Shown: in pieces, positions 7,905 through 22,226 of the stretch | Position numbering within the stretch: the stretch's first letter is position 1 | Layout: the number at the start of each line of letters is the position of its first letter | Made by a program: the position numbers and the translations under genes | The notes under the pieces: generated by a model | Database searches by the model: none | The model's input: only the letters and a program-made list of their open reading frames with translations | Told to the model about the DNA's origin: nothing | IMG/VR virus record: IMGVR_UViG_3300008216_000046 | Location: 1 to 32,501 of that record | Origin: a virus | Strand: one strand, 5' to 3' | DNA: 32,501 nt

Positions 7905-8082
7905 CTTCGGGCACTCCTTTGTAAAAGACACTTGACGAAACCTTTTCTTGGTCTTGCCTTACGTGTTCTTCAATTATGTACTCGACCTGTTTCTTTAACG
8001 ACCGCTTATTTTTCTTAGCAATCTCAGACAACAGGAATTTGATTTGGGGGCTGACTTCAGCCTTAAGTATGTGATTCTTCAC
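7882..8082 (-). CDS. Small protein, possible ribbon-helix-helix DNA-binding
   Basis: This 66-residue protein starts at a GTG five bases after AAGGAG. The N-terminus reads as a short strand (HILKAEVSPQ) followed by two helices (IKFLLSEIAKKNKRS and LKKQVEYIIEEHVRQ), the size and order of a ribbon-helix-helix domain of the CopG/Arc type. It overlaps the primase-helicase end upstream and the Gp157 gene start downstream, so all three are probably co-translated. A regulator of this operon is possible; the call rests only on secondary-structure pattern. Confidence 0.55.
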   Translation of the reverse strand: MKNHILKAEVSPQIKFLLSEIAKKNKRSLKKQVEYIIEEHVRQDQEKVSSSVFYKGVPEDGSKEND

Positions 8083-9871
8083 AATTACTCCTTTTTACTG
8101 GCAATCTAAATGATGGTTGCCATTCTAGGTCAACTTCAAATAAATCACCATCACTGTTTTTGAATAACTGAACCTCTTTATCTGGACTATCTTGCCTACC
8201 ATTGATACCTATTACTTTGCGTGATGCATTCTCAATCGCTCCACTGCCTTTACCTGCATAGATGTCAAGGACTTCGTTTCGACTATATTCTCTAGATACT
8301 TGAGATATCTGTATGATAATAATATCGCTGTTAATAGCAAGATTGGATAAATAATGCGAGATATACCGTACCTGTTCATATTCACCTCTAACATTTCTTG
8401 GTGTCTCTAATAAATCTATATAGTCTACAATAACAAGAGCAGGGTCTAATTCTTTAATCTTCTTTGGTATCATCGTTACTTCACCAGCGACCGTCTGTAT
8501 TACTATATTCTGTATATATTCTTTAAAAGTCATACCAACATATCTATGACTCTTAGTAACCTCTTCTTTAGTCATTCCACTTGCAATCTGCAAATTCCTT
8601 CTATGCATATACCAACCACTTAATTCTAAAGATAAGAATAATGTTGGTACTTGCCATTCAGTCCTTATACAGTCATTGGCAAAGTCATATCCCAAAGCTA
8701 TATTTTGTGCGAGAGTAGTCTTATTTGACCCTGTTGGACCAAATATTGTTACTAATTCACCCGGATATATAGCACAATCCTTGTCATTCAAACCAAACCT
8801 TTCAGCAAGGTCTATCATCCTACCTGAGAAATCAGTTTCTAATCTTTCAGATAAGTCTTTCTGTAACTCGTCAGCGTTCTTTACATCTACCAGATAATCC
8901 TTATTCTTGTAGTATATGCACCTAGGTTCACATACCGGTACAAGAATTTCATCATCACAACCATATTTATATCCACCATTGTAAGTGGCTTCGACCTTGT
9001 CAATTACAATTTGTGGGTTTAATTGGTTATTATTCCAATGTAATAATGACGACTTAGCGGCTTCACTCGGTATTCCGTGTCTACGCATATGGGATGCTAT
9101 TCGTAATACCGTATTGTTTCTTGTTCCTTCATTAGGACCTCTTTTATAAAGAGTTTGTATACAAGGCACAATATTTCTAGGTTCAGACACTCGTGTCATT
9201 TCCCTAATTTGTGGCACATCTTTGTCAACAAGTTCTCCAAGACTACCATCACCCCATAGTTCTGATTGTCCTGTGCTTAATCTTCTGTCACTAGCAATCT
9301 TATGAATTCCTGCAACAGATGATGTCATTACTTCATTATAAGTTAATGGTACTTTAAACAGTTGTGACTTGATATTCAAAGTATGTGGTAAACGTATTAA
9401 TGCTGTACGTGTATAGACGGCTGGGTCAATGGGCACCAATTCATCAAAGATGCCCATCATAGTTTGCTTTACCGTAAATGGTAAGTCTGAACTTGGTTCA
9501 AAACCAAAGCATTCACTGCTAATATCCACGTGATAGCCATTACCAGAGAAATAAGCTTGGAAGTTACCTTCCTTTAAACTTAACTCATCAGTAAGATGAA
9601 AGATAATAGCCTGTGTTTGCTGTAAGACATATTCATCAGAGTTCTGACCTTTATCAATATCGATTGGTACATCAGTGATACCCCTTGTTCCCAAGAAGTT
9701 CTTTATTGTTCCACTCTTCTTAATAAAGTTCAAAGCTTCATCATCATATGTATATACGCTTTTGTATATAGCTTGGTTACTCCCTTGTTCATAAACTAAA
9801 TCCCATAGTTCCTCGTAAGGAACGAGAGCCCCCCGTCTAGAGGGGCTCCCTATTGCGACTTCTACGTACAA
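8063..9871 (-). CDS. Bifunctional AEP-type primase / DnaB-like helicase
   Basis: This 602-residue protein has an N-terminal archaeo-eukaryotic primase domain, with the metal-binding DxD in VPIDIDKGQ (about residue 70), then FSGNGYHVDIS (the SxH-type motif) and a conserved RTALIRLPHTLN. The C-terminal half is a RecA-fold helicase: Walker A GPTGSNKT at about residue 380, Walker B LVIVDYIDLL at about 480, and IIIIQISQVSRE, as in DnaB-family replicative helicases. It would synthesise primers and unwind the phage replication fork. The start is a TTG immediately after the TAA of the upstream gene with no ribosome-binding site, implying coupled re-initiation. Two tight hairpins lie in its first 70 bases. 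Confidence 0.85.
   Translation of the reverse strand: MYVEVAIGSPSRRGALVPYEELWDLVYEQGSNQAIYKSVYTYDDEALNFIKKSGTIKNFLGTRGITDVPIDIDKGQNSDEYVLQQTQAIIFHLTDELSLKEGNFQAYFSGNGYHVDISSECFGFEPSSDLPFTVKQTMMGIFDELVPIDPAVYTRTALIRLPHTLNIKSQLFKVPLTYNEVMTSSVAGIHKIASDRRLSTGQSELWGDGSLGELVDKDVPQIREMTRVSEPRNIVPCIQTLYKRGPNEGTRNNTVLRIASHMRRHGIPSEAAKSSLLHWNNNQLNPQIVIDKVEATYNGGYKYGCDDEILVPVCEPRCIYYKNKDYLVDVKNADELQKDLSERLETDFSGRMIDLAERFGLNDKDCAIYPGELVTIFGPTGSNKTTLAQNIALGYDFANDCIRTEWQVPTLFLSLELSGWYMHRRNLQIASGMTKEEVTKSHRYVGMTFKEYIQNIVIQTVAGEVTMIPKKIKELDPALVIVDYIDLLETPRNVRGEYEQVRYISHYLSNLAINSDIIIIQISQVSREYSRNEVLDIYAGKGSGAIENASRKVIGINGRQDSPDKEVQLFKNSDGDLFEVDLEWQPSFRLPVKRSNCEESHT
9808..9848 (-). promoter_or_regulatory. Tandem hairpins at 5' end of primase-helicase gene
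   Basis: Two stems lie within the first 20 codons: GAGCCCC/GGGGCTC (9826-9832 with 9842-9848) and GTTCCT/AGGAAC (9808-9813 with 9818-9823), the second with a UACG loop on the mRNA strand. Together with the TTG start lacking a ribosome-binding site, they could limit independent initiation. Regulation is inferred. Confidence 0.4.
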
Positions 9872-10492
9872 TTAGAACTTTGTAGGTTCTGAACCATTTG
9901 ATGTACCAGCACCATTTGGTTGCACGTTAGACATATCGGCTTCCTTGATAAGATTCTTACCTTTTAAGAAAGCTATATAGCCTTCTAATTCAGTTCTCAT
10001 CTTATCGGTATTTGGTACCAACCTAGGATAAACGGTCGTGTATGCCTTGGAGGGGTCCTTTCGACCCGGTTCCTTGTATACGTAACCATACGCATCAAAG
10101 CGTGGTACCAAAGGGTTAGTGACGTGATGTTTCTCCAAATATAATGCGAGATTATCTATGGAATTTCCATCAGCATCAACCCAGTTGCCTTGTACATCAG
10201 GACCTCCTTGAAAGCCCACTACATCAAAGAGCCAATAAAGTCTCTTTAACAGTGTACAGGTCTTTATGTTGCCATTGGATTCTCTATCATATGACCCAAC
10301 AATCTTCATTTCCACAGGATACTGTGAACCTTCTAATTGTAAAGTCACTGATATAAAGACATCAGCCCAATCAAATAAATCGGTCTTGTCTTCATAACCC
10401 ATTATAGCAACAGGTAGAAACCCTAGAAACTTACTCCCACCATCGGGGGCTGTATCTAGGTCTTCTGGACGAAAACGTGTAGTTTCATTCAT
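9872..10492 (-). CDS. Hypothetical replication/recombination partner protein
   Basis: This 206-residue protein starts at an ATG nine bases after GAGGAG and directly follows the stop of the Sak4-like gene. The central part is beta-rich (VFISVTLQLEGSQYPVEMKIVGSYD). A segment GGPDVQGNWVDADGN and a C-terminal disordered tail rich in Asn, Gly and Ser (NVQPNGAGTSNGSEPTKF) follow. The acidic, flexible tail and the place between a Sak4-like ATPase and the primase-helicase are typical of phage single-stranded-DNA-binding partners. I see no decisive motif, so ssDNA binding is an inference from layout and context. Confidence 0.55.
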   Translation of the reverse strand: MNETTRFRPEDLDTAPDGGSKFLGFLPVAIMGYEDKTDLFDWADVFISVTLQLEGSQYPVEMKIVGSYDRESNGNIKTCTLLKRLYWLFDVVGFQGGPDVQGNWVDADGNSIDNLALYLEKHHVTNPLVPRFDAYGYVYKEPGRKDPSKAYTTVYPRLVPNTDKMRTELEGYIAFLKGKNLIKEADMSNVQPNGAGTSNGSEPTKF

Positions 10493-11368
10493 CTACTGTT
10501 TCTCCTCTTTATAATTAAGTATTTCATCACATACTGTTTTATAGTCAAACGGAAGTTGCTTCTGATTCAAAGGCTTGAGTCTAGAGCCAACGACTCTTTC
10601 ATCATAAGCCTCAAATGAAACATAGAAACCACCGTCATCTTTCTTAGCTGTAATATATCCTATTACATCGGCTTTAGCGGCAAGAGAATACCCGAGTCCT
10701 CTCGGGAGCTCAGGTCCTAATTGTGCTTTACCATCAGTTACAACTGTAGACTTTGCGTGTGATATCAATACCAGATTTCCACCTTTTTGTTTTATCAGAC
10801 TTTGGAATCTTTTAATTACGTCAACATTCTTCCGTCTGGCTTTACCCCAGTCGGCTCCCCATTGACCTTCTCCCATTGCTGATATTCCCAGTTCCTCACA
10901 GACTGTAGTTTCAATCCATTCATTTACCTGTCCGATAGTGTCTATAACTATTGTCTCATAAGGCAACGTATCCCACGCTGTCGCTAACCAGTTGTAAACT
11001 TCTATTAATGAATAGGCATCAATAGGTTTACCTTTATCTTTACCAGTACGTGCTAGGAAACCACGTTCATTTGGTGGGATTACTTCTGTTTGCGGTACAC
11101 CACCCTTAGTGACCTGCTTATCTTCGTGTAAGACAGGTCTCATAGGTGGATTTAAGGAAGAAATGGTAACCGCATTGACGCCATCTACGAAATCAGAACC
11201 TAAGTCCGTATCTAATAGAATGACTCCATCATTTCCTTTGTCAGACCATCTGCTTGACGCAGTAGTCTTACCCGTTTTGGGTTGTCCGATTAGAAACCAC
11301 GTTAGACCGGATGGCATTGCTTTCCAGTCCGTCGAGACTTTCCTCACGGTTATGTTGGGTGCTTGCAT
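10493..11368 (-). CDS. Sak4-like RecA-fold ATPase (AAA_24 type)
   Basis: This 291-residue protein is read from the ATG at 11368, six bases after AAGGAG; an ATG two codons upstream abuts that site. Walker A is GQPKTGKTT (about residues 29-37), followed by ILLDTDLGSDF. Walker B-like TIVIDTIGQVNEW is at about residue 140. GGNLVLISHAKS follows, the sensor segment common to RecA-core phage ATPases. Sak4 proteins assist single-strand annealing and recombination, usually with an ssDNA-binding partner, here plausibly the next gene. Its first about 100 bases overlap the 3' end of the E1-like gene in another frame. Confidence 0.75.
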   Translation of the reverse strand: MQAPNITVRKVSTDWKAMPSGLTWFLIGQPKTGKTTASSRWSDKGNDGVILLDTDLGSDFVDGVNAVTISSLNPPMRPVLHEDKQVTKGGVPQTEVIPPNERGFLARTGKDKGKPIDAYSLIEVYNWLATAWDTLPYETIVIDTIGQVNEWIETTVCEELGISAMGEGQWGADWGKARRKNVDVIKRFQSLIKQKGGNLVLISHAKSTVVTDGKAQLGPELPRGLGYSLAAKADVIGYITAKKDDGGFYVSFEAYDERVVGSRLKPLNQKQLPFDYKTVCDEILNYKEEKQ

Positions 11369-12047
11369 TAGCATCTCCTTCAGGTTTTGGTACTACAAGA
11401 GTACCATATTCGACCATATTTGGGTTCAGGCTGGTCCAAATGTAGTCATAATATGCCAGATTTGCAATAATATTATATACTTGGGAAACACCAAGAGATA
11501 CTATATGCTGTGTGGCAAACACTGTATGTTTCATAGAACAAGGAGCTTCTGGAACACTATCTGTAGGAATCCATTCCTTCATATAATTATCCATATCCTT
11601 GGTTACAGTAGACATCTCTACTGTTGTTGCACCCATCCGTAAATCAATTAAGAACTTACGGTTGTCTTGTAGCTTCCAATCTTCATACACTAATTTTCTT
11701 GACTCCATATCATCTGTACATACAATCATCATAGGCAATACAACTGAACCATATTGGAAATTTCTTTCCGGTCTAAATTGTTGCCAGTCTTCTGCATATT
11801 CTTTATGTAAGTCAACTGCCGCATCCTTTTTAAACTTGCCTGTTTGATACAAAGGATACGCCGTAGTACTTAAGTTATGGTCCTCTACTCTATCGCTGTC
11901 ATAACCCCAAATAGACTGCCAGCCCATCATAGTTAAACTTTGAATCATAAAAGAACCAATACCACCGAGACCTACTACACCAATCTCAGTTAATTTAGGT
12001 AAAGGAATTAAATCCTTATTCCTTAGGAATCTTGTTTCCATTGCCAT
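11268..12047 (-). CDS. E1/ThiF-like ubiquitin-activating enzyme
   Basis: This 259-residue protein has a Rossmann-type adenylation domain. The nucleotide-binding VVGLGGIGS is at residues 24-32, and the E1 signature YDSDRVEDHNLS at 49-60 provides the Asp that contacts ribose and the HNL counterpart of the usual SNLNR. CTDDMESRK at 110-118 is the following ThiF-type motif. Cys170 in APCSMKHTVF is the candidate thioester cysteine. Such enzymes adenylate the C-terminus of a beta-grasp protein and pass it on as a thioester. The zinc-binding CxxC pairs of MoeB/ThiF are absent. The last 35 residues look disordered and overlap the Sak4-like gene by about 100 bases. Its partners Ubl, E2 and JAB lie upstream in the same operon. 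Confidence 0.85.
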   Translation of the reverse strand: MAMETRFLRNKDLIPLPKLTEIGVVGLGGIGSFMIQSLTMMGWQSIWGYDSDRVEDHNLSTTAYPLYQTGKFKKDAAVDLHKEYAEDWQQFRPERNFQYGSVVLPMMIVCTDDMESRKLVYEDWKLQDNRKFLIDLRMGATTVEMSTVTKDMDNYMKEWIPTDSVPEAPCSMKHTVFATQHIVSLGVSQVYNIIANLAYYDYIWTSLNPNMVEYGTLVVPKPEGDANASTQHNREESLDGLESNAIRSNVVSNRTTQNG

Positions 12048-12463
12048 TTGATAAAATCCTCCAGCATTTGATGTGCCAATTCCTCACTGCCAAACATACA
12101 AATATCCTTAATCTTTGTGCTTTCAGCACTGATTGCATCCAGTTCTTCTTGATATTTATGTTGAGCTCGACCTACTTCTTCTTCAAACTTTGCTTCCCAT
12201 TTATCGTGGTCTTTAAGTAGTTTGTCTACTGATACACTATTGCTATAGTAACCAGTATACTCAGCTCTACGTCTGTTAAGTATATTGTTTACTAATTCGT
12301 GTATCTCTTGAGGAGATTTGGTCACAATCTTATTGTTCTCGAAATCTTCAGCCAATCGACGTTCTTTATCAAAATGTTTTGACTGAACGGACGCTAATTT
12401 GTCACTAAGTATTCCATCAATCCGTTTTATGAAATACTTCTTCTGTGGTATTGTCATAGACAT
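12023..12463 (-). CDS. Coiled-coil hypothetical protein in the Ubl cassette
   Basis: This 146-residue protein is read from the ATG at 12463, five bases after AAGGAG; a GTG two codons earlier abuts that site. It is charged and mostly helical, with coiled-coil character around residues 20-45 and 80-118 and a single Cys in DICMFGSEE near the C-terminus (about residue 124). It overlaps the E1-like start by 25 bases, so the two are probably translated together. I recognise no family. Its place between the JAB and E1 genes makes it a candidate adaptor, substrate or ligase-like partner; this is inference from position only. Confidence 0.6.
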   Translation of the reverse strand: MSMTIPQKKYFIKRIDGILSDKLASVQSKHFDKERRLAEDFENNKIVTKSPQEIHELVNNILNRRRAEYTGYYSNSVSVDKLLKDHDKWEAKFEEEVGRAQHKYQEELDAISAESTKIKDICMFGSEELAHQMLEDFIKWQWKQDS

Positions 12464-12497
12464 ATACACTCCTTATTTATTAAGTTAAGTTAATCAA

Positions 12498-12604
12498 TAG
12501 GGGTATCCGGCTTTCTCACCAGTTGTACGGCTCGGTGCGGTACAGGGCTCACGTATCCGGTTTTATTACATACTGGCTTCAACCCCTACTGAAAGCGTGA
12601 GGGG
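12498..12604 (-). ncRNA. Candidate structured or switch-like RNA between JAB and the coiled-coil gene
   Basis: This GC-richer stretch of the 12470-12677 gap has several complementary segments. TAGGGGT (12498-12504) pairs with ACCCCTA (12582-12588). The same CCCCT (12583-12587) can instead pair with AGGGG (12600-12604), so the two folds exclude each other. Inside, CACC/GGTG (12517-12520, 12534-12537) and TGTAC/GTACA (12524-12528, 12540-12544) cross as in a pseudoknot. GTATCCGG is repeated directly at 12503 and 12553. I see no open reading frame here. A leader or riboswitch-like control of the downstream coiled-coil and E1 genes is possible; minus strand is assumed from the operon. Confidence 0.4.
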
Positions 12605-12677
12605 ACCCTTTAGCAAGAGCCCCCCCGGTACACTATCATACAGTTGAAGGTAATGTGGAAGGCATTACAATAGTGCA

Positions 12678-12866
12678 CTAATATCCATAATAGCCAGACA
12701 CATATAAATGTGGGTCTATATCAGGACACTCCTTACGGATGTCTTCAGTAAATTGATGTTCGTCTATTTCACAATTATTCAATTTATTAAAGATAACATC
12801 TGCTTTGACCAGTTGACTACCTAAGTCAGCTTCCCCGATAGGTGTATTGTCTTCTGGTCCTTCGGC
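12678..12866 (-). CDS. -1 frame extension of the JAB protein
   Basis: Reading on in the -1 frame from the slippery site gives 62 codons ending at TAG (12678-12680). The peptide starts AEGPEDNTPIGEADLG, continues through a probable helix (LVKADVIFNKLNN) and ends HLYVSGYYGY. It has balanced amino-acid use and no start codon or ribosome-binding site of its own, so it makes sense only as a fusion to residue 227 of the JAB protein, giving a 289-residue product. The alternative is that the extension is the normal end and one base of the A-run is a sequencing error. Confidence 0.7.
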   Translation of the reverse strand, partial: AEGPEDNTPIGEADLGSQLVKADVIFNKLNNCEIDEHQFTEDIRKECPDIDPHLYVSGYYGY

Positions 12867-12886
12867 TTTTTTTCGTCATCTACTCC
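12807..12886 (-). promoter_or_regulatory. Programmed -1 ribosomal frameshift signal in the JAB gene
   Basis: On the minus strand all three dnaX-type elements are present. A Shine-Dalgarno-like GGAG (12883-12886) lies 10 bases before the heptamer A AAA AAG (12866-12872), which is in the correct phase (gaA AAA AAG). Six bases later a stem starts: GACCAG (12854-12859) pairs with CUGGUC (12807-12812), continued by GAC/GUC and ACCUA/UAGGU with an apical loop. The zero-frame stop falls next to this upper stem. Spacings match the known E. coli dnaX arrangement. Confidence 0.75.
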
Positions 12887-13546
12887 ACTAATTCGATTGT
12901 ACCCACCCCAGCCATTATAATAACCACCATAACGACTGTCATTCTGGGTATTAAGGATGTTAAGCTGACCATTCTTGTTATAAACAATCTTAGTCTTCTT
13001 GTTTTCCTTCTCAATCTTCTTTGCTTCTGCTTTCCATTCTTTAGGAACATCCATTTTATAGTCAGCAACTACATCGCCTTCAATAAAATTTGGAAATCCA
13101 AAGTGGTCCCTGTAACTAACACCCGTACAAAATTCATCTTTGTCAGACGCAACTACTGTCGTGAAGAACAGACCTTCTAGAGGTGCTTGTTCTAACGCTG
13201 TGTCTTTATCGGTACCACTAAAGAACGCTCCCATATTATGATGAGAATGTATTAACCCTAGATAACAATTCTTCAATTTCTTGTTTTCCTTGTATATCTG
13301 TGGCAATATTTTGCCCAATTTCTCACCATCAATCTCAGTTTCTGTTGCGTGACCTAAGTCTATTGCAACGAAGTGATTGAGACTAACTTCTGACGGGAAG
13401 CCATTCTTTTCACGCTTATTTACTCCATACCAAGCTGGTCCAGACCACTCTTTACTCTTAAAACGAGTCAAGAGATAATTGATTTTCTGGACTATTAGGT
13501 CTGGTAGGTTCACCGTAAGCGTCAATTTGTTTGCTTCGTTTGTCAT
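12821..13546 (-). CDS. JAB/JAMM-family metallopeptidase (deubiquitinase-like)
   Basis: This 241-residue zero-frame product starts at an ATG six bases after AAAGGAG. It has a complete JAMM zinc-peptidase motif: Glu33 in KEWSGPAWYG, then His100-Ser-His102, seven residues, Ser110, two residues, Asp113 (LIHSHHNMGAFFSGTD). Such enzymes cut isopeptide or peptide bonds after a ubiquitin-like protein, either maturing it or removing it from targets. Residues 165-195 are Lys/Glu-rich, followed by a Tyr/Gly-rich stretch (YGGYYNGWGGY). The start overlaps the end of the E2-like gene by 89 bases. A frameshift signal at codon 227 can replace the last 14 residues with a 62-residue extension. Confidence 0.9.
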   Translation of the reverse strand: MTNEANKLTLTVNLPDLIVQKINYLLTRFKSKEWSGPAWYGVNKREKNGFPSEVSLNHFVAIDLGHATETEIDGEKLGKILPQIYKENKKLKNCYLGLIHSHHNMGAFFSGTDKDTALEQAPLEGLFFTTVVASDKDEFCTGVSYRDHFGFPNFIEGDVVADYKMDVPKEWKAEAKKIEKENKKTKIVYNKNGQLNILNTQNDSRYGGYYNGWGGYNRISGVDDEKKPKDQKTIHLSGKLT

Positions 13547-15044
13547 CAGTAACTCCTTTATAGAGAGCTTTCAGGTAATTCTGAAAAAACTCAAGGGCAT
13601 CTACCTGAAATTTGACCCTGAATTCTGTAACTAAGCCATTAGTGTCATAATTATCTAACACTAATCCCATTTGATTGACTATCGTTCTATATTCTTCTCC
13701 CATTTGCTCTCTTTTCTTAATGGGACGAATACTGTCGTCATTACGTAAGCTTATCCAACCAGACATTATCTGATGTGGATTAAACGAATCAATCACTTGC
13801 TTGAATAAGGGACCAAATTCCCTTATACGCCATATGAAATACAGAACTTTAAAAACCTCTGACTTCATAGGTCTTGTCATACCTGCGGCACGTAAACACC
13901 ACTCACCAACTACTCTATTTACTTCATCATTTTGCATATATACTTTATTTGTTATATCTGTTGGTGTCAGATAGATACGAGTCCTTGCATTAAGTACTTC
14001 TTTAATCTCAGGATAACTCTCATTATCACGATGTGTAAATTGATTAAAGCGATACTTTAAGCCATCAAATGAATTAGGTATACTAAATACTCTGTCCTGA
14101 GCAAACGGGTCGTTACCAGTTCTTATTACACCTGTAAAAGATTGTTCAATCCAAGCATATCCATTAAGTTTATGCGTATTGTATATCTCATCCAGACATT
14201 TACTCATTCCTTCGTTATAAAGTTTCTCTAACATTTGATGCCAACCGTGCATTCGGTCAACTTCTTTGTCTTCTGTGTCTGTTTCATACCTTAAAGTACC
14301 TTTATAAACACAATAAGCCATTAAAGCTTTCTCCCAAGTAACACCCATCGCCTCAAGTTTCTCTTGAGTTTCATCATTACGCATCCAACTGTCAAAATGC
14401 CGCATAATTAGATTGCCACCTAAATCATTTACGATAGCTCTTGCCATCTGTGATAGATATAGCCACTCTCTAAATTGCATACCTCTGCGTCCTTGCATCT
14501 GCCCACTACGTTCAAAACTTCTATGCTGAGTATTAACATCCCAGAAACAATCAACACGTGTCCAAGTATTTAGAAACGCACTAGATATATTCATTAGTGC
14601 AGGTATGTTTCCTTGATTAACTGCTGTAGAAAATGGTCTACCGTAATCACCTAAACAAGGACTTCCATCTGCTGAAATATGTGGATGAACACTCAATGGC
14701 ATATTAGTATCTTCACGTCTGTAGCTTAACCTACGTCTGAGGTCCCACCATTTTTCATAATTGTCTTCATCTGGTTTAATGAGTACTAAACTAGGCTCAT
14801 ATAAACTGAAGTCTAATGAATGTGGTGGTAATGTTAGATGACGTCTTGCCCTCATCTTTGGGTTCCCAAGTCTTACTCTAAAGCTTTTAAACCTTTTACT
14901 TGGGCTGTGGAATTGTACTCCACGCTCTACCAATTCTTCTACTTTCGCTCTTGCTTGATTAACATTCAAACGAGCACGCTCCATAGAATTCTTGGAATTT
15001 AATACTAGCCATCTTTCTGCTAGTTTAGCTAGAACTCTGTTCAT
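13458..15044 (-). CDS. E2-like ubiquitin-conjugating protein with long C-terminal region
   Basis: This 528-residue protein starts at an ATG seven bases after AAAGGAG. Residues about 55-140 read as a UBC-like core ending in LSVHPHISADGSPCLGDYG. His120 and Cys130 are ten residues apart, exactly as in the eukaryotic HPN...CL catalytic motif, with HPH in place of HPN. Cys130 would carry the Ubl thioester. About 390 residues follow that are helical and Trp/Met/Arg-rich with no motif I know, far longer than a normal E2 (about 150-170 residues). They may give target or virion specificity. It lies directly after the Ubl gene and overlaps the JAB gene. Confidence 0.75.
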   Translation of the reverse strand: MNRVLAKLAERWLVLNSKNSMERARLNVNQARAKVEELVERGVQFHSPSKRFKSFRVRLGNPKMRARRHLTLPPHSLDFSLYEPSLVLIKPDEDNYEKWWDLRRRLSYRREDTNMPLSVHPHISADGSPCLGDYGRPFSTAVNQGNIPALMNISSAFLNTWTRVDCFWDVNTQHRSFERSGQMQGRRGMQFREWLYLSQMARAIVNDLGGNLIMRHFDSWMRNDETQEKLEAMGVTWEKALMAYCVYKGTLRYETDTEDKEVDRMHGWHQMLEKLYNEGMSKCLDEIYNTHKLNGYAWIEQSFTGVIRTGNDPFAQDRVFSIPNSFDGLKYRFNQFTHRDNESYPEIKEVLNARTRIYLTPTDITNKVYMQNDEVNRVVGEWCLRAAGMTRPMKSEVFKVLYFIWRIREFGPLFKQVIDSFNPHQIMSGWISLRNDDSIRPIKKREQMGEEYRTIVNQMGLVLDNYDTNGLVTEFRVKFQVDALEFFQNYLKALYKGVTDDKRSKQIDAYGEPTRPNSPENQLSLDSF

Positions 15045-15107: not shown

Positions 15108-15308
15108 TCAGCCTGAAGTTACCTTGCTAGTGGTAAAAGAAACGAAATCATCATCCCTTAGTTCACTATCAAGAGCTACTTTGTCTGAATTCACAGTTAT
15201 GGTGGCATTCTCTACTGAGATACCCAGTTGTTCAGCTATACTAGCTGGACTTGTTGCATCAACAGTTTTGACTGTTCCACCGAAGGTTTGTACAAGTACT
15301 TTAGCCAT
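15108..15308 (-). CDS. Ubiquitin-like beta-grasp protein (ThiS/MoaD-type)
   Basis: This 66-residue protein has the size and pattern of a ThiS/MoaD/PRTRC-C-type beta-grasp fold: a first hairpin (AKVLVQTFGGTVKTVD), a helix (SPASIAEQLGI), strands ATITVNSDKVAL and a terminal strand DDFVSFTTSKV. It ends in Thr-Ser-Gly, a single C-terminal glycine. The family's C-terminal glycine is what an E1 adenylates. It precedes E2-like, JAB and E1-like genes in transcription order, which strongly supports a role as the conjugated modifier. With the glycine already terminal, no processing peptidase would be needed. The ribosome-binding site is weak (AAGG about 12 bases upstream). Confidence 0.8.
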   Translation of the reverse strand: MAKVLVQTFGGTVKTVDATSPASIAEQLGISVENATITVNSDKVALDSELRDDDFVSFTTSKVTSG

Positions 15309-20179: not shown

Positions 20180-20736
20180 CAGATAGAGAGGTAAAATTTG
20201 AGAATTGGTACATTGTTAAGAACTTATTCTCAGATGATGAAATAGAGCAGTTATTCCAAGATATAGAGGTATTGCCTAAAAAGAAGGCTAATATACTGTC
20301 TGGTGAGGATAATGATTACCGTGAGAGTATGATTAAGTGGATTCCTAAGTTTAATAGTGATACCTATGGATGGATATACGAAAAAGTATGGAAATGGGTA
20401 GATATCGCTAATAAGGAACTCTGGGACTTCGATTTAGTAGGTATGAGGAATGATGCCCAATATACAGAGTATAACCAAGAAGGACACTATGATTGGCATA
20501 TGGATATACTAGGAAAGGGTATAAATCATAGAAAAATCTCTATCACGGTTCAATTAAATAAAAACTTTAAAGGTGGCGAGTTAGAGTTTAAATTCGGAAA
20601 GGGTTCGGAGAAAATAGCTTTAGAGAAGGGAGATGGTGTTATATTCCCTTCTTTCTATTTACATAAGGTAAATCCCGTAACGTATGGTAAAAGGAAAAGT
20701 CTAGTACAATGGATTTCGGGGAAACCGTACAAGTAA
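20146..20736 (+). CDS. 2OG-Fe(II) oxygenase (prolyl-4-hydroxylase-like)
   Basis: This 196-residue protein has the double-stranded beta-helix oxygenase signature: GHYDWHMDIL provides the His-x-Asp iron ligands (about residues 118-120), and FYLHKVNPVTYGKRKSLVQW near the C-terminus provides the distal His and the Arg/Lys that binds 2-oxoglutarate. GGELEFKF lies between them. The enzyme would hydroxylate a protein or small molecule using 2OG, O2 and Fe(II). Such genes are frequent in aquatic phages, but targets are mostly unknown. It overlaps the TerL gene by 28 bases. Confidence 0.8.
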   Translation: MVDRALESYLVTDREVKFENWYIVKNLFSDDEIEQLFQDIEVLPKKKANILSGEDNDYRESMIKWIPKFNSDTYGWIYEKVWKWVDIANKELWDFDLVGMRNDAQYTEYNQEGHYDWHMDILGKGINHRKISITVQLNKNFKGGELEFKFGKGSEKIALEKGDGVIFPSFYLHKVNPVTYGKRKSLVQWISGKPYK

Positions 20737-22226
20737 CAGATGACTTTGAAGCTAAATATGCCCAAGAACAGGCATTAAAGAAGCTAAGGGATAATATTGG
20801 TCTTTTTGGAAGAACAATGTTCCCTACAGCCCTGAATAAGGCTGTTCCCCAGTTCCATCACGAAATATACAGAAATTTATCCGACGGTCTCAAAAAGCGG
20901 TTACTGATTGCCGCCCCTCGTGGCACAGCAAAAAGCACAGTGACCTCCTTGATTCTGCCCCTTCATCGAGCCGCTTTTAAGCCGTCGGATAAAGATTTAT
21001 TTATAGTTATCATATCTGAGAGCCAAGCTCAGAGTATAAACTTCTTATCAAGGATAAAACACCATCTCCAACATTCTAGGAACTTTATTGATATGTTTGG
21101 TGATTTTGGACCAAATACTGCAAAGAGATGGACTAATAACGATATTGTTCTAGCCAATGGTACAAGAATGATAGCCGTTGGTACCGGTCAAAGAGTTCGT
21201 GGGTTTATTGAGGGAGATACTCGACCAAATCTTATAATAGTTGATGATTACGAATCGGAGCTAAATGCCGCTACACCTGAAGCTAGAGCTAAAAATAGGA
21301 AATGGATTACAGAGGCAGTTATACCATCATTAAGTGATGACGGTAGAATTGTTATGATAGGAACAGTAATTTCAGAGGATTGCTTCTTATATTGGGCAAA
21401 AGACTCTCCAGCTTGGAAAGTTCTGTGGTTTTCTATCACAGATGACGAAGGAGAGAGTATTTGGGATGAAAGGTTCCCTATGTCTAGAATCCACGATATA
21501 AAAGCAGAGTTTGAAAGTGTTGGGAACTTAAATGGATTCTATCAGGAGTATATGAATGAAGCTCAATCGCCAGACAATGCACCGTTTAAGCCAGAATATA
21601 TCAAACTACACCACTACCACTATAAACGTATTAACGGGCAAAATTGTCTCGTTAGGATTATCGATGGTCAGGAAGAGCAAAAACCTGTGGAGGTCTATTG
21701 TGGGATTGACCCTGCTAGTAGTCTCTCTGCTAGGTCAGACTTTTTTGTTATTGCTACTATTGCTCTTGACAATGCTGGCAATAAGTATGTTGTGGATATA
21801 TTCAGAGACAAAGTCGACCCTGCAATCCAGCCTGACAAAATTATCGAAATTTGGAAAAGATATCGTCCGAAGAGGATGAAAATAGAAACAACTGGGTATC
21901 AGGAAGCATTAAGAGCTAATGTACGTAAATTAATGCTTGACCAAGGATTATACATACCCGGACTGGAAAAAGGGATAAAACCTAGGACCAAGAAGTCTGA
22001 AAGACTATTATCTCTTGTAGCACCACTTGCTAGGGGTGAGTTTTTCTTCAGGACACAGGATTTAATACCACAACAAGAGTTCTTATCTTATCCAAGGGGT
22101 AAACACGATGATGTGTTAGATGCAGTCTATTATGCACTAGATGGAGCTAAACAATGTCGTATAAAAGAATTTGACCCAAATGCCATAAAAAAGACGAATA
22201 AAGTTCTTGATTGGCTTACAATGTAG
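20709..22226 (+). CDS. terL: Terminase large subunit
   Basis: This 505-residue packaging motor has the ATPase Walker A APRGTAKST (about residues 69-77), Walker B LIIVDDYESE (about 175-184), and the nuclease domain with catalytic Asp in YCGIDPASS (about 335) and a C-terminal KHDDVLDAVYYA acidic motif (about 461-472). It drives genome translocation into the procapsid and cuts DNA to length. It is followed by the portal, the usual order. The start lies within the end of the oxygenase gene and has only a distant AGGA, so coupling is likely. Confidence 0.95.
   Translation: MDFGETVQVTDDFEAKYAQEQALKKLRDNIGLFGRTMFPTALNKAVPQFHHEIYRNLSDGLKKRLLIAAPRGTAKSTVTSLILPLHRAAFKPSDKDLFIVIISESQAQSINFLSRIKHHLQHSRNFIDMFGDFGPNTAKRWTNNDIVLANGTRMIAVGTGQRVRGFIEGDTRPNLIIVDDYESELNAATPEARAKNRKWITEAVIPSLSDDGRIVMIGTVISEDCFLYWAKDSPAWKVLWFSITDDEGESIWDERFPMSRIHDIKAEFESVGNLNGFYQEYMNEAQSPDNAPFKPEYIKLHHYHYKRINGQNCLVRIIDGQEEQKPVEVYCGIDPASSLSARSDFFVIATIALDNAGNKYVVDIFRDKVDPAIQPDKIIEIWKRYRPKRMKIETTGYQEALRANVRKLMLDQGLYIPGLEKGIKPRTKKSERLLSLVAPLARGEFFFRTQDLIPQQEFLSYPRGKHDDVLDAVYYALDGAKQCRIKEFDPNAIKKTNKVLDWLTM

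Follow-up and report, generated by a model that had tools for sequence, protein, structure and literature searches.

A dnaX-like signal in a phage JAB metallopeptidase gene very likely directs −1 frameshifting into a conserved C-terminal domain

Overall, our analysis indicates that a JAB/JAMM metallopeptidase gene in an uncultured virus record is very likely expressed via a dnaX-type programmed −1 ribosomal frameshift. The sequence signals, their conservation, the homology of the extension and the purifying selection acting on it are shown; the slippage itself and its efficiency are inferred, as there are no expression data. Across the family, the conserved trait is very probably a dnaX-like signal from which two JAB isoforms arise, one carrying a C-terminal domain and the other lacking it, while the frame that encodes the long form has flipped; here again, slippage is inferred. 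The window, meaning the whole 32.5-kb stretch of DNA analyzed, belongs to a phage whose marine origin is inferred from the contig collection and its relatives. A reading of the letters alone had claimed a dnaX-like −1 frameshift that extends the JAB peptidase, and this claim was supported: the heptamer, the frame relation and the extension are kept in lineages 71-75% identical. The features of the gene and its signal are as follows.

12821..13546, minus strand: JAB/JAMM metallopeptidase gene, zero frame, short form of 241 aa (Pfam Prok-JAB, E 2.7e-6, above cut-off)
12883..12886, minus strand: Shine-Dalgarno-like GGAG, 10 nt 5′ of the heptamer (sequence)
12866..12872, minus strand: slippery heptamer A AAA AAG, read in the JAB phase as GAC GAA AAA AAG, kept in the linker and avoided at other sites of these genes
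12860..12865, minus strand: 6-nt spacer (sequence, fold)
12807..12859, minus strand: putative stimulatory stem-loop, 53 nt, −17.8 kcal/mol (MFE fold)
12821..12823, minus strand: zero-frame stop TAG, 14 residues past the heptamer (sequence)
12681..12866, minus strand: −1-frame extension of 62 sense codons, giving a long form of 289 aa (homology, profile match, model)
12678..12680, minus strand: −1-frame stop TAG (sequence)

Every element claimed by the sequence-only reading held in the sequence and the MFE fold, namely the GGAG, the 10-nt distance, the in-phase heptamer, the 6-nt spacer and the stem pairs GACCAG/CUGGUC, GAC/GUC and ACCUA/UAGGU, as did its counts of 14 zero-frame residues past the shift and 62 sense codons in the −1 frame. 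The best hairpin starting 5-9 nt past the heptamer reaches −17.8 kcal/mol in the window, −24.2 in the related contig L001 and −19.4 in L002, at distances of 6, 8 and 6 nt, respectively, and was equaled in 0/60, 0/60 and 1/60 dinucleotide shuffles. The fold of the signal region as a whole is only modestly special (z −2.0), and Rfam covariance models gave no relevant match at the signal up to E 10. A contig from another metagenome (L006) is identical in DNA here, the seven A included. The −1 frame of the window is closed just 3 codons upstream of the heptamer; it lacks ATG altogether and has no ATG, GTG or TTG ahead of the conserved domain. The intergenic DNA 3′ of the −1 stop (12560-12684, minus strand) also has a strong predicted fold (−43.0 kcal/mol for 125 nt), possibly as a terminator or structured RNA; it is near-identical in L001 and differs in L002.

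A search with the JAB protein retrieved six related viral contigs, and a wider search gave 80 loci. The JAMM motif (H100-x-H102-x7-S110-x2-D113) is invariant in the JAB alignment. The JAB of L001 is 75% identical to that of the window and those of L002-L005 are 71% identical; in all of them, too, the JAB frame has an in-phase A AAA AAG a short way before its stop, and the −1 frame encodes the same extension, with the common consensus ...HxFxxxxRxxCPDxDPHLxxSGYYG. The run consists of 7 A in the window and L001 and of 6 A preceded by C in L002; therefore, the −1 arrangement is not one shared homopolymer error. Between the window and L001, the extension has a dN/dS of 0.33/1.16, and 15 of its 24 differences fall at third codon positions. 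The extension is under purifying selection, as coding sequence would be.

In most close relatives, the same C-terminal domain lies in the JAB reading frame. A profile built from in-frame members only matched the window −1 ORF at E 9e-18, its sole match among 861 six-frame ORFs. Counted as distinct sequences, the domain is in the −1 frame in 4, in frame in about 50 and in the +1 frame in none; this count places L006, which is a partial sequence of the window type, among the in-frame members, and the low-score in-frame assignments are weak. The four −1 sequences (the window, L001, L002-L005 and L008) all have the domain behind a slippery heptamer and represent two independent origins, although the L008 case rests on a run of A10 present in just one assembly. 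All sequences are metagenome assemblies, and they represent only a modest number of independent lineages. The extension had been regarded as an add-on, and this part of the sequence-only reading is corrected: being in frame in most relatives, it is a conserved C-terminal domain normal to the family. That reading had named a homologue alignment as a check, in which the heptamer and extension indeed proved conserved; it had also held that homologues encoding the extension in frame without a heptamer would refute it, and such homologues were found among more distant relatives. Against this result, the largest in-frame clade retains the heptamer, at which slippage would have the opposite effect.

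This clade, clade B, has 25 members (L011, L016-L020, L022-L024, L027-L032, L034-L041, L051 and L098). An in-phase A AAA AAR occurs in the linker between the JAB and C-terminal domains in 21 of the 25, and A AAA AAT or A AAA AAC occurs there in L023 and L029, which brings the total to 23/25. The codon before the heptamer varies (GAA, GCA, CAA, AAA), with A always as its final base. Lys-Lys pairs are encoded by the heptamer at 19/33 positions in the linker versus 1/68 in the remainder of these genes (Fisher p 8e-11, merely indicative because the sequences are related); outside the linker, the pairs are mostly AAG-first, and the first Lys codon is AAA in 9/68 cases compared with 28/33 in the linker. 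Synonymous conservation along the clade B gene shows its largest excess immediately behind the heptamer. A −1 shift at this point would terminate after 4-26 codons, so the clade B short form would arise by slippage, like gamma of E. coli dnaX. We also considered selection on the short-form tails themselves (VILLGP in clade B; TIHLSG, TIILGE or VIHL in the window's clade) and left the matter undecided; the clade B tail overlaps conserved W-D codons and the stem, which precludes a decision there.

Stimulatory elements accompany the heptamer in part of the family. Six clade B members with A AAA AAG (L017, L018, L019, L035, L036 and L041) have a stem of ~7-12 bp, TCCTCTTGGGA...TCTCAAGAGGA, exactly 6 nt downstream, and L027 has one at 7 nt, with TGC/GCA in place of CTC/GAG and the register moved by one base. 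Individually, the clade B stems outdo only about 75-98% of shuffles, and a hairpin scan found no well-placed stem in L008 or most A8-A10 members. Of 10 A AAA AAG members, 8 have an SD-like motif 7-16 nt upstream, compared with a background of 11% elsewhere along these genes; none is clearly present within range in L002 or L017.

As a control, an in-phase A AAA AAG was noted at 22187 on the plus strand of the window, 13 codons before the stop of the terminase ORF (20709-22226). Two relatives of 88% identity (L188 and L189) share it; the L004 and L005 genomes have this heptamer, and four clade B genomes lack it. The −1 reading at this heptamer closes within 2-5 codons. Because this heptamer is conserved in the terminase of the window and its close relatives, heptamers at Lys-Lys pairs can persist without a known use.

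Maximum-likelihood analysis of the JAB core groups the window with L001 and L002 in one clade (99/95). L008 also has its domain in the −1 frame, there preceded by a run of 10 A; it branches as sister to L009 and L010 (97/94), both of which are in frame. Since L008 groups with in-frame members and apart from the window clade, polarity has changed at least twice.

The extension of the window, modeled alone with 36 relatives, forms a confident three-helix unit (core pLDDT >90), and a structural search with this model gave no significant match. A full-length model of an in-frame homologue showed a disordered linker and three C-terminal helices; its confidence was low (pLDDT 54), and it was left out of the fold search. 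RST, SHOCT and EF-hand domains emerged only as weak sequence leads for the C-terminal domain, and no membership is claimed. Because the intact JAMM motif sits in the shared part, both forms could be catalytic, with cleavage of a ubiquitin-like conjugate being inferred; the extension would alter the partners or targeting of the peptidase.

We therefore provide a putative mechanism. Ribosomes reaching ...GAA AAA AAG, in the disordered linker past the JAB domain, would be held by the stem-loop and by an internal Shine-Dalgarno contact, and two Lys tRNAs would re-pair one base back, on AAA AAA, although the Lys tRNA set of the host is unknown. Ribosomes that do not slip would stop 14 codons on and release a 241-aa catalytic core, whereas those that slip would make a 289-aa enzyme with the three-helix C-terminal domain and a Tyr/Gly-rich tail. 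In sister phages, the same signal would operate with the frames reversed, the zero frame giving the long form and the −1 frame the short one. The long form may dock the peptidase to a partner, perhaps the neighboring conjugation or replication proteins, while the short form would remain free.

These neighbors form a ubiquitin-like gene cassette beside replication genes, in the minus-strand order Ub-like, probable E2-like, JAB, 148-aa protein, E1-like ThiF, AAA ATPase, 206-aa protein and primase/helicase.

15108..15308, minus strand: ubiquitin-like protein, 66 aa, C-terminal Gly (weak TGS/ThiS-like matches; synteny)
13458..15044, minus strand: probable E2-like protein, HPHISADGSPCLG motif (motif and synteny)
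12023..12469, minus strand: 148-aa protein of unknown function, judged helical by eye only
11268..12047, minus strand: E1-like ThiF-family protein (Pfam ThiF, E 7.6e-9)
8063..11374, minus strand: replication genes adjoining the cassette (AAA ATPase, 206-aa protein, primase/DnaB-type helicase)

This order is kept in the relatives within contig coverage, except that the synteny comparison did not detect the 148-aa protein in some of them. The E2-like assignment is inferred from motif and position only, with no family match above cut-off. The Ub-like protein is 98% identical to that of the window in L001 and 95% in L002, compared with 35-57% for the adjoining E2-like protein, an unusually strong constraint. 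Several cassette genes overlap: AAA and E1 by ~107 nt, E1 and the 148-aa protein by 25 nt (both within 11268-12469) and E2-like and JAB by 89 nt (13458-13546), all on the minus strand. Synteny suggests, without showing, a possible link between the Ub-like system and phage DNA replication. The cassette DNA had zero matches among 50,697 phage records, and cultured relatives offer only distant JABs; the host is unknown because genome contigs gave one distant match only.

Four rival explanations were weighed. The one that survives best, although we consider it unlikely, is a tolerated indel, whereby the long form is the only one of importance, slippage serves just to restore it, and the short form arises incidentally. 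In its favor, close in-frame relatives without the heptamer have the long form as their only evident product, and there have been at least two polarity flips. However, the clade B long form does not depend on slippage, and yet the heptamer, the SD-like motif and the stem are retained there, and the heptamer is avoided elsewhere.

Somewhat less probable is RNA polymerase slippage on the A-run, which would give mixed mRNAs and the same two proteins. Polymerase slippage of this type has reportedly been described for Thermus dnaX, and runs of 9 A or T cause slippage in bacteria (PMC5009743); it is plausible in the several relatives that have A8-A10 runs without a downstream stem. The window, however, has just 7 A, and L002 and L019 have 6, and this explanation gives no role to the heptamer phase, the SD-like motif or the stem at +6.

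The last two rivals are very improbable. A sequencing or assembly error, or a decaying pseudogene, might be suspected from a homopolymer within metagenome assemblies, but L006, from a second sample, has the same bases, the L002 type occurs in four contigs, run lengths differ (6 and 7) with the same frame relation, and both parts of the gene are under purifying selection. Separate production of the extension by re-initiation or an internal start finds support in an ATG directly ahead of the conserved domain in L001, but the window −1 ORF opens 3 codons before the heptamer without ATG, GTG or TTG before the domain, and relatives encode the domain fused to JAB.

Returning to the frameshift reading, a bolder version holds that frameshifting sets the ratio of two deubiquitinase-like isoforms throughout the family, and that this ratio regulates replication-coupled phage Ub-like conjugation. 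Under this version, slippage near one half would make the choice of long-form frame nearly neutral, and the frame would therefore flip between lineages. We lean slightly against the regulatory claim and near-neutral flipping both being correct. The earlier suggestion that two isoforms tune cleavage against conjugation remains speculation, neither upheld nor refuted.

No frameshift in a JAB gene has been described in the open-access literature that we searched, in agreement with the sequence-only reading, which knew of no such case. If true, this would be the first recoding signal reported for a JAB/deubiquitinase-like gene within that literature. It would indicate that these phages need two forms of a Ub-removing enzyme, and it would offer a handle on the function of phage-encoded Ub-like systems and a natural comparison of one signal in both polarities. 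Annotation pipelines will cut the window protein short and overlook the short form in relatives.

The cassette resembles bacterial Ub-like/JAB/E1/E2 operons (Iyer et al. 2006, PMC1779556, row 6d) and PRTRC cassettes in having a small Ub-like protein with a terminal Gly, an E1-like protein, an E2-like candidate, a JAB with an R/W-containing N-terminal region and one additional small protein. Unlike these, it is phage-encoded and adjoins replication genes; no recoding is mentioned in the relevant sections of PMC1779556. The cassette was not assigned to PRTRC because its E1 and JAB score far below the model cut-offs (ThiF, 28.7 bits vs 144.75; JAB, 14.5 vs 101.8). The JABs of crAss-like phages and Flavobacterium phage FpV4 belong to the same family (about 30% identity) and have replication-gene surroundings, but their long C-termini are different. 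In FpV4 (L185), DAC15 (L186) and cr128_1 (L187), the distant JAB lies near primase, toprim or uracil-DNA glycosylase genes, and the FpV4 stretch has a ThiF-like neighbor too. These three have no obvious counterpart of the frameshift signal; no comparable linker heptamer was found in DAC15 or cr128_1, and FpV4 has only A AAA AAT. In phage tail-assembly-chaperone and capsid genes, −1 slippage also yields two forms (PMC10885494), but those are structural proteins with another genomic place and other partners, and the JAB here is not a tail gene. In anatomy, the signal is like that of E. coli dnaX (tau/gamma), which has an in-phase A AAA AAG, an internal Shine-Dalgarno and a stem-loop of about 10-11 bp, and which yields two isoforms with a common N-terminus, one of them without the C-terminal domain(s). 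The protein is unrelated, however, and slippage produces the short form there and would produce the long form in the window. A few bacteria have been reported to show such a polarity reversal in dnaX (PMC5009743), and, by analogy, the JAB family appears to repeat this reversal in another gene.
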